DNA from: an uncultured Gammaproteobacteria bacterium | GTDB taxonomy: Bacteria > Pseudomonadota > Gammaproteobacteria > JAADHQ01 | DNA length: 64,000 nt | Reading direction: 5' to 3' | Assembly (NCBI GenBank): GCA_947258755.1 | Contig: CAMYJO010000001.1 | Location: forward strand, 62,001 to 126,000 | Part shown: one piece after another, positions 36,635 through 39,351 of the stretch | How positions within the stretch are numbered: position 1 is the first letter of the stretch | How the letters are laid out: each line of letters begins with the position of its first letter | Translations under genes and position numbers: made by a program | Notes under the pieces: generated by a model | Seen by the model: only the letters and a program-made list of their open reading frames with translations | Database searches by the model: none | Told to the model about the DNA's origin: nothing

Positions 36635-36663
36635 TATACAGCGGCACCTGTTCTCCCTATAAT
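36635..36663 (+). promoter_or_regulatory. Probable promoter of the RRM protein gene
   Basis: TATACA (36635-36640), a 17-base spacer and TATAAT (36658-36663) give a good sigma70 promoter. The start would be near 36670, with a leader of about 70 bases that includes CGGG...CCCG pairing. Confidence 0.5.
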
Positions 36664-36738: not shown

Positions 36739-37209
36739 ATGTCTGCAAATATTATCAAACTCATATTTCTCTGTATTATCCTCACAGTTTTACTGGCCAT
36801 TGCCGCTCAACCACTATTTGGACTGTTCAATCTCGAAGCTAAGAGCAGCAGTCAACAATTTGCCTGGGGTATGGGCGCAGGTGCATTGATCGCTTCCCTG
36901 CTGACGGGAATCATTTTATTGATCAAGCCTTATAAGCTAGCCATCAAAAAACAAACCTTGTTTATTGGCAATCTTGCCTTTAAATCAACAGATCGCGACT
37001 TACGTAAACTATTCAGTCAGTGCGGTGAAGTATTTTCTATACGCCTGATGACCGACAGGGTCACACGTAAACCACGCGGCTACGGCTTCATTGAAATGGA
37101 TAGTGTTGGTGCCAAGAAGGCCATGTCTACATTGAATGAGCAGGAATTCATGGGTCGCGAACTGCGCGTTAGCCTGGCCAATGAGCCATCCAAACAGGCT
37201 GATGAGTAA
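36739..37209 (+). CDS. Membrane-anchored RRM RNA-binding protein
   Basis: This 156-residue protein has two N-terminal membrane helices (about 5-28 and 45-66) followed by a complete RNA recognition motif (about 73-148). RNP2 is LFIGNL and RNP1 is KPRGYGFIEM, with the aromatic residues needed for RNA stacking. The C-terminus is acidic and short. Bacterial RRM proteins are normally small and soluble, so the helices would tether RNA binding to the inner membrane. It appears monocistronic, with its own promoter. The RNA target is unknown. Confidence 0.88.
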   Translation: MSANIIKLIFLCIILTVLLAIAAQPLFGLFNLEAKSSSQQFAWGMGAGALIASLLTGIILLIKPYKLAIKKQTLFIGNLAFKSTDRDLRKLFSQCGEVFSIRLMTDRVTRKPRGYGFIEMDSVGAKKAMSTLNEQEFMGRELRVSLANEPSKQADE

Positions 37210-37283
37210 GACCCGGTAACTCTTGCTATCAATACAGCTAAGCCAAGCTGTCTTCGCTGTATCTAAGGAACCTCTAATTATTG

Positions 37284-37370
37284 TGTCATTGCGAGGATGC
37301 CTCGACCCGGAGGGTGAGGTCCCCATAATGAAACCCGAAGGGGTTCTATGGGCTGTACGATGAAGCAAAC
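37284..37370. repeat. TGTCATTGCGAG-type dispersed repeat with hairpin
   Basis: TGTCATTGCGAG (37284-37295) and TGAAGCAAAC (37361-37370) are the ends of a common dispersed bacterial repeat. Between them CCCATA...AACCC-GAAG-GGGTT...TATGGG (37322-37352) can form a strong hairpin. A fragment of the same repeat family, inverted, lies at 62200-62225. No gene is seen in the 270-base stretch after the RRM gene. Confidence 0.5.
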
Positions 37371-37481
37371 CAAAGAGCCATTCACAAGGTGATTTATAGT
37401 CGGTCAGTAACTACGTGATCCTAAGTAGCAGACCGTCTAATTATGCTTTGGATGGGTGGCCCTTTGGATTGTCGCGCTGCG

Positions 37482-38045
37482 TCAGATCAAGCCGTTCCGG
37501 ACCTTTTCCTTCAGGCGAATAAAATCAGCATGCGGCACATAGATCAGATCCGCGACCTTCCTGATCACATGTTCCTCGTACATATCCAGCTGGCCGTCGG
37601 CATAGGCCACCTGCCACATGAATTCAACAATATCCAATTTATGCGGCAAATCATAGCCACGGTTAATCAATGATGTAAATTGATGATAGTCCGTCGAATC
37701 ATGTAACTCAGCACTGGCCAGTTGTAGTAATTCGTCTGCTTCCTGATGTTCGATACCAAACTTGCTCATCGATGCCTGTATGATTGCGTCGACCTCTTGC
37801 TCGGACTTATGATCATCCACACGCATGACTTCGACCATCAGAGCCGTGGCGGCAAGGCGTAACTTATGTTCATCCTGAACAGGATCTTCAGCTTGCGGTT
37901 GTATTAAGCGGTTATAGAATGCCTGTATTTTATCGAGCATACTTAAGAGTCCAGTAGCGGCTCGAGCCATTGATGCACGGCCCCATTCAATGGGTAACTG
38001 GCTCGTATCGCAGTCAGTGTTATTGAGCCTGACATTTTCATTCAT
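37482..38045 (-). CDS. TerB-like protein
   Basis: This 187-residue protein has the TerB-like helical fold: LRLAATALMVEVMRVDDHKSEQE (a metal-binding Asp/Glu set), a mid-protein ELLQLASAELHDSTD, then HKLDIVEFMWQVAYADGQLDMYEEHVIRKVADLI, the second conserved acidic motif. TerB-like proteins are linked to stress and membrane signalling. The first 35 residues lack homology, so the true start may be ATG 37940 (MLDKIQAFYNRL). It diverges from the response-regulator gene. Confidence 0.82.
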   Translation of the reverse strand: MNENVRLNNTDCDTSQLPIEWGRASMARAATGLLSMLDKIQAFYNRLIQPQAEDPVQDEHKLRLAATALMVEVMRVDDHKSEQEVDAIIQASMSKFGIEHQEADELLQLASAELHDSTDYHQFTSLINRGYDLPHKLDIVEFMWQVAYADGQLDMYEEHVIRKVADLIYVPHADFIRLKEKVRNGLI

Positions 38046-38249
38046 GCTTCCAATTTAAATCCAGATGGGATTATGCCATATTCGCCAGCAAGGCACTCAC
38101 CCAAATATGTGATGTAATACTAGAAAAATAACTTGCGAAACAGCACCGGTATCGACTAATCTAGAATAAAGTATGGTTACTAATGTTATACAATATCAGC
38201 ACGTTCTTTTAACGAATACCATTAACGACAGCAATGATGTGAGGGTGTG

Positions 38250-38714
38250 ATGCAAAAATTTAAATTTAGTTCGCTTTTTAGCAGAAAATCCACACAACGC
38301 GAACGACGTGCAAGACCGCGACGCGACATCCCGCAAGGGGCTTCCATTCTCATCGTTGACGACTCCAGAACCATTCAATTCACACTGAAAAAAATGCTCG
38401 AACAGGGTGGCTATACGATATTGCTGGCCGACGACGGCACGCAGGCCATCGACATGGCAAAACAGCATGACCCCGACCTGATTTTGATGGATGTGATCAT
38501 GCCCGGCATCAATGGTTTTCGCGCCACGCGTCTGCTGAATAATGATGAGCAGACAGCGGGGATCCCCATCATCATGATGAGTTCGGACGAACAGGCCATG
38601 CAGGAATTCTGGGTTAACAAGATTGGCGCCAAAGATTTTCTCAATAAACCTTTTGTGCGTGCTCAGCTGTTTCAGAAAATAGAAAAATTTCTGCGTGTAA
38701 AGATGGTCGCCTAA
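38250..38714 (+). CDS. Single-domain response regulator (PilG/PilH type)
   Basis: This 154-residue protein has a basic N-terminal tail (residues 1-32, rich in Arg/Lys) and a receiver domain: ILIVDDSRTIQ (acidic pair), the phosphorylated Asp in LILMDVIMPG (about 83), MMSSD (switch Ser) and NKPFVRAQL (Lys). It has no output domain. The pattern fits PilG/PilH or CheY-like proteins in twitching motility. No pil genes lie nearby. A GTG three bases upstream is an alternative start. Confidence 0.9.
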   Translation: MQKFKFSSLFSRKSTQRERRARPRRDIPQGASILIVDDSRTIQFTLKKMLEQGGYTILLADDGTQAIDMAKQHDPDLILMDVIMPGINGFRATRLLNNDEQTAGIPIIMMSSDEQAMQEFWVNKIGAKDFLNKPFVRAQLFQKIEKFLRVKMVA

Positions 38715-38763
38715 AGGGTAAAAACTCCTACAATAACAGGCAAATTCAGCAAAAAGCTGCCGA

Positions 38764-39351
38764 TTATTGCTCCAGCATTTTCTCCAGTTTTTCTATTTTC
38801 TTTTTCATCTCAACCGAAATCTTGGCCATCTCCTGGCGCAGGTAAATGCTTTCGATGTTCATTTGCAACTGATAAGCCATCCGCTCAAGCAAGGCCTTGT
38901 CTTCATTGGTATATTCACCTTGGCCACGCTTGTTGAGCACCTGTATGGCACCGGTCACGGTGCCAGTACTAACACCCAATACCGGTACGCATAAAGTATT
39001 TCGAGCGATGAATCCGGTTTTCATCGAGACCACGTCGTGTTCACCAACAGACTCTTCCATATTCATATCCATCCATGGCTTTGCGGATGAGATGACCTGG
39101 CCAACAATGGATCCTGCAGTCGGCACGCTGACCTGCTTTTCCTCAAGCCCGGTACCACACTGCAGCCATACCTTGTCTTCCTCAGGGTCGAGGACAAAAA
39201 TACTGCAGCGTTCAACATCCAGAACCTTAGGCATAATATCGATAAAAAATTGCAGCAATTCCTTGTTACCGGTCTTCTTCCAGGCACGATCCAGCTTCTC
39301 CTGTTTAGCCCTGATTTTTTCGAGTTTTTTCTCCAGCGTTAGCTTATCCAT
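38764..39351 (-). CDS. GAF domain protein with flanking coiled coils
   Basis: This 195-residue soluble protein has a charged coiled-coil N-terminus (MDKLTLEKKLEKIRAKQEKL), a GAF domain (about 30-165; CSIFVLDPEEDKVWLQCGTG, LCVPVLG, GAIQVLNKRG) and a C-terminal coiled coil (EMAKISVEMKKKIEKLEKML). No output domain is present, so it probably works through a partner. It converges on the receiver gene with about 50 bases between them. Ligand unknown. Confidence 0.85.
   Translation of the reverse strand: MDKLTLEKKLEKIRAKQEKLDRAWKKTGNKELLQFFIDIMPKVLDVERCSIFVLDPEEDKVWLQCGTGLEEKQVSVPTAGSIVGQVISSAKPWMDMNMEESVGEHDVVSMKTGFIARNTLCVPVLGVSTGTVTGAIQVLNKRGQGEYTNEDKALLERMAYQLQMNIESIYLRQEMAKISVEMKKKIEKLEKMLEQ

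Follow-up and report, generated by a model that had tools for sequence, protein, structure and literature searches.

According to the introduction of one account (PMC10942595), prokaryotes have few proteins with an RNA recognition motif (RRM), and the role of these is often not known. RNA binding has nevertheless been reported for soluble single-RRM proteins, namely AB-Elavl from A. baumannii (PMC9313427, a text in which the word "transmembrane" occurs 0 times), RbpPg1 from P. gingivalis (PMC12119571) and RbpB from B. thetaiotaomicron (PMC11697453). The protein described here is encoded in a 64-kb stretch of DNA (the window) and, like these three, has a single RRM with RNP1 and RNP2. It adds a predicted membrane hairpin, whereas no transmembrane segment was noticed in the accounts of AB-Elavl, RbpPg1 and RbpB. 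The structure of RbpPg1 is presumably that deposited as PDB 7jly.

A functional parallel may come from cyanobacteria, where Rbp2 and Rbp3 bind photosynthetic mRNAs and are implicated in the thylakoid location of these transcripts (PMC11500504; PMC12475003). Rbp2, Rbp3 and RbpG share with the window protein a single RRM, and one report implicates them in locating or stabilising membrane-protein mRNAs at a membrane (PMC11500504). The best NCBIfam match of the window protein is Rbp_regulator (NF058537) at 82.2 bits, which, unlike the score of a member, is under the cut-off of 100; a relative (L199) scored 96.1 bits. We assume that this model covers the cyanobacterial Rbp proteins, which were reportedly studied by Mahbub (2020) and Hemm (2025). 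To our knowledge Rbp2, Rbp3 and RbpG have no membrane anchor and are not membrane proteins, and for this reason the analogy concerns function only. The names "Rbp3-like" and "HuR-like" were not adopted as membership labels for the window protein, and its database annotation is presumably RRM or RNA-binding protein. RNase E and RNase Y are membrane-anchored RNA enzymes. They hold an RNA-acting domain at the inner membrane face, as proposed here for the window protein, but their domains are unrelated to it and the window protein has no nuclease domain. No membrane-anchored bacterial RRM protein was found in the titles and abstract openings of the papers listed by searches of the open-licence literature. 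As far as literature searches show, the RRM domain is known and its combination with two transmembrane helices (TM-TM-RRM) is an unstudied variant.

The gene, its parts and its convergent neighbour are as follows.

36635..36663, plus strand: likely sigma-70-type promoter, TATACA-N17-TATAAT (conserved in four congeners; hexamers read by eye)
36739..37209, plus strand: TM-TM-RRM gene, 156 aa, ATG start, uninterrupted open reading frame
36751..36807, plus strand: predicted transmembrane helix 1, residues 5-23 (model helix 3-29; hydropathy and AlphaFold2)
36868..36924, plus strand: predicted transmembrane helix 2, residues 44-62 (model helix 37-61; hydropathy and AlphaFold2)
36925..36957, plus strand: short basic linker, residues 63-73 (KPYKLAIKKQT), predicted cytoplasmic from the sequence and the family charge pattern
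36958..37167, plus strand: RRM domain, residues 74-143 (Pfam PF00076, pLDDT, PDB RRMs by fold)
36958..36975, plus strand: RNP2, LFIGNL, residues 74-79 (from sequence; position-2 aromatic in 68 of 68 tethered proteins)
37075..37098, plus strand: RNP1, RGYGFIEM, residues 113-120 (from sequence; aromatics at positions 3 and 5 in 68 of 68)
37482..38045, minus strand: gene for a single-domain TerB protein, convergent neighbour (Pfam PF05099, 119 bits; the listed start may precede the true one)

The original prediction, which described intact RNP1 and RNP2 motifs following two membrane helices, was borne out by the reading frame, hydropathy, Pfam and AlphaFold2. Mean Kyte-Doolittle hydropathy is 2.96 for residues 5-23 and 2.17 for residues 44-62. 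Pfam RRM_1 (PF00076) matches at 67.4 bits against a gathering threshold of 20.7 (E 1e-18, profile positions 1-70 of 70), and LapA_dom is absent from the Pfam matches up to E 1. In the AlphaFold2 model, built from 12 sequences, helices 3-29 and 37-61 are predicted with moderate pLDDT (about 70-82) and the full RRM fold with pLDDT of about 97 (mean pLDDT overall 85.5, pTM 0.57); the modeled strands and helices follow the beta-alpha-beta-beta-alpha-beta order. The best Foldseek matches of the model in the PDB are RRMs (E 1.8e-9), the RRM part alone being covered. We take F75, Y115 and F117 to be the RNA-stacking aromatics of the RNP motifs. Their retention in all 68 tethered proteins was counted on rows chosen by a loose RNP pattern, which did not demand an aromatic at 75, 115 or 117. 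The genome has two further RRM genes, with open frames of 84 and 96 codons and no hydrophobic segment. No Rfam element was detected in the 64-kb window.

Whether the helices belong to the protein depends on where translation starts. The reading frame opens only one codon ahead of M1, and an alignment of four congeners shows that the promoter-like block ahead of the gene (36635-36663) is conserved. Among these congeners (six pairs), pN/pS is 0.31-0.44 for residues 2-71, 0.35-0.49 for residues 2-44, ahead of the first internal Met, and 0.14-0.21 for the RRM, all approximate ratios since synonymous sites are near saturation in most pairs. Judged by these values, residues 2-44 are under purifying selection, and this, together with the early opening of the frame and the conserved block, supports translation from the first Met. 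M1 is also invariant in two alignments of 16 and 12 tethered proteins, in both of which the start was picked as the Met just ahead of helix 1. In-frame ATG codons at M45 and M47 could in principle yield an ordinary small soluble RRM protein from within the frame, but a start at either would retain most of helix 2, and selection on residues 2-44, the invariant M1 and the conservation of helix 1 throughout the tethered clade all speak against it, so that we find this reading hardly credible. An internal start past the helices, the objection that the original prediction had raised to itself, is thus unlikely given the selection, the promoter-like block and M1, and was rejected on the pN/pS values of the four congeners. 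A hydrophobic stretch arising by chance was likewise rejected, on conservation, as 68-69 different proteins have two such segments ahead of the RRM.

The distribution of charge in 69 distinct tethered proteins bears on the topology. The mean number of lysines plus arginines is 0.86 ahead of helix 1 and falls to 0.19 in the loop, of which only 12 of 69 hold any; the 15 residues at and past the end of helix 2 have a mean of 1.59. From this pattern both ends and the RRM are predicted to be cytoplasmic, that is, a hairpin of N-in/C-in topology with the RRM facing the cytoplasm.

Proteins of the tethered architecture occur widely in the phylum. With a profile of six tethered proteins, matches that run into the part with the helices were obtained in at least 21 of 369 sampled genomes from the class (G000-G003, G037, G047, G054, G096, G106, G126, G127, G141, G187, G198, G216, G222, G296, G301, G304, G336 and G348). 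All 21, when translated, have hydrophobic segments, with just one above the cut-off in G296 (locus L074). With a profile of 16 proteins, the best match started at profile position 14 or earlier in 83 of 398 phylum genomes, 31 of them from the window's class, 51 from f207 (another class) and one from f240; some of these 83 rows have one stop codon in the aligned stretch, and helices were checked in the fetched loci. No tethered frame of the fetched loci lacks a segment above the 1.6 cut-off, and several (for example, L172, L175 and L189) have one only. Among 80 RRM loci from named organisms, 15 were flagged for a hydrophobic stretch; in four of them (L113, L142, L147 and L163) it falls ahead of the probable start Met, and their removal brings the tethered set to 11. 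The 11 are from Veronia pacifica, two Pseudoalteromonas, Candidatus Oceanisphaera, Aeromonas australiensis, Shewanella saliphila, Colwellia, Idiomarina, Glaciecola, an Aeromonadaceae MAG and Gammaproteobacteria isolate Kmv18. The class, phylum and named-locus searches dismiss the idea of an architecture confined to the genome of the window. The view that bacterial RRM proteins are usually soluble and small agrees with the 65 of 80 named loci that have no hydrophobic segment ahead of the RRM and the four more that have one only in the frame before the likely start; the rarity of tethered forms that the original prediction implied was, however, wrong, given their taxonomic spread.

Are the tethered proteins one lineage or several? 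A tree of the RRM domain alone was built from 68 tethered and 70 of 95 untethered rows over 79 columns, and its resolution is consequently weak. On this tree the tether label changes three times, against a mean of 46.4 when labels are shuffled, and 65 of the 68 tethered RRMs, including that of the window protein, form one clade (SH-aLRT 92) without an untethered row. The three outside it are L014, on a very long branch, L031 and L082; a single clade of all 68 tethered rows was not rejected (AU p 0.777). The tree thus indicates that the tethered clade is of common descent. The conserved hairpin, purifying selection, positive-inside pattern and membership of one clade together give the membrane tethering originally proposed good support at the level of sequence.

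Two of the outlying proteins, L031 (the same gene as L083) and L082 (f45), likewise have two helices plus an RRM. The N-terminus of the former has a weak likeness to LapA_dom (19.7 bits for L083, below the cut-off of 28), and that of L082 resembles it by eye. In this and in their position outside the tethered clade they are unlike the window protein, and they are possibly a separate fusion, an independent membrane tethering of an RRM.

Our preferred interpretation, which we hold to be moderately probable, is that the two N-terminal helices would form an inner-membrane hairpin with both ends cytoplasmic, and that the short linker would keep the one canonical RRM close to the membrane on its cytoplasmic side. 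There the RRM, whose sequence preference is probably modest, would bind single-stranded RNA and, being held at the membrane, could concentrate, protect or regulate a set of transcripts, most plausibly mRNAs under translation into membrane proteins. Placement of mRNA at the membrane is plausible by analogy with cyanobacterial Rbp2, Rbp3 and RbpG. We infer membrane insertion, topology and RNA binding from the features above; the RNA targets and the physiological role as proposed are speculative.

The gene neighborhoods suggest other readings. In all 11 genomes with a full-length protein from family f1, to which the window belongs, and family f52, the tethered RRM gene has TerB no more than about 1.5 kb away, even though each of these genomes has only one or two TerB genes. 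The two genes are convergent in 4 of 4 f1 genomes; in the 7 of 7 f52 genomes carrying the tethered protein, TerB is downstream on the same strand, with no intervening gene in four and one in three, and in L074 (f52) the genes overlap by 4 nt (ATGA). One could therefore envisage a membrane stress module in which, for example, TerB senses envelope or metal stress and the tethered RRM alters translation near the membrane. Yet TerB was not adjacent (elsewhere or missing) in any of the 8 genomes with the tethered protein that were checked in six other families, no other close TerB was seen among the fetched loci examined, and TerB persists in 4 of 6 f52 genomes without a full-length tethered protein. 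The TerB link is real but lineage-bound; with linkage in two families only, TerB was rejected as a partner throughout the family, and the stress module appears quite improbable. A different role for the RRM, as a protein-protein or ribosome-docking module whose tether brings a component of the ribosome or the degradosome to the membrane, would suit the weak specificity that is general for single RRMs. It would also fit the best PDB sequence matches of the profile, among them RRM proteins from the small subunit of the chloroplast ribosome (5x8p, 5mmj), and the position of the gene in several families, head-to-head with a 16S rRNA gene at 470-783 bp in 9 of the 11 loci run against Rfam (L194 and L196-L203; the 11 are part of 20 fetched from genomes of other gammaproteobacterial families). 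In the remaining two, the facing side holds tRNA-Ile only (L195) or nothing (L206). The 5' side of the gene is 294-1564 bp from a contig end in all 11 named tethered loci (within L084-L161), as expected if an rRNA operon adjoins.

The rRNA neighborhood may, however, be inherited gene order and not function. Behind the tethered gene are murI in 7, trmA in 11 and fabR in 10 of the 20 loci (family matches checked for L199 only). In E. coli K-12 the order is fabR-yijD-trmA-btuB-murI-rrsB, with no gene between murI and rrsB; the trmA/murI/rRNA slot of the tethered gene matches this trmA-btuB-murI-rrnB locus, and E. coli is without the gene. Moreover, the three RNA-stacking aromatics present in 68 of 68 members would be needless for a protein-only role, and we consider docking doubtful as the function of the RRM. 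In 4 of 7 loci of f207 the gene has lipA on its upstream side and a gene for an aroG-type DAHP synthase on its downstream side, each on the strand opposite to it (families checked for L208 only). No general operon partner emerged from the loci examined, apart from TerB, the murI/trmA/fabR/rrn order and lipA/aroG. Neighbors differ between lineages, and context therefore fixes no function.

Some further features of the neighborhoods were observed. In the window, a divergent ABC-2 type transporter pair lies upstream of the gene, and a stand-alone response regulator and a GAF-domain protein are encoded beside TerB (38247-39351); response regulator and GAF-domain genes are also kept near the RRM gene in three congeners. 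Parts of the intergenic region behind the RRM gene (37265-37395) recur at five other sites in the genome (31-59 bases, 80-90% identity), and it looks like a short dispersed repeat. In two loci from congeneric genomes the tethered RRM and TerB are separated by a gene for a rhomboid-family membrane protein (L068, 7116-7664; L235, 8175-8720), the Pfam match having been checked in L068 only.

In its widest form, the interpretation of the hairpin and RRM as a membrane-held RNA-binding protein would be that of an ancient, dedicated protein in several lineages of one phylum, keeping at the inner membrane either defined mRNAs (probably for membrane proteins) or ribosomes engaged in translation, divergent from the rRNA operon in several gammaproteobacterial families and working with TerB in other lineages; taken as a whole, this is unlikely. 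A conserved protein made of nothing but a hairpin and an RRM offers a clean handle on the question of how mRNAs come to be placed at the bacterial membrane when there is no dedicated anchor. The family is present in cultured relatives (Shewanella, Pseudoalteromonas, Aeromonas and Veronia) and is thus experimentally accessible. If the proposed role is true, the protein would localise mRNAs in bacteria by means of a membrane anchor of its own.
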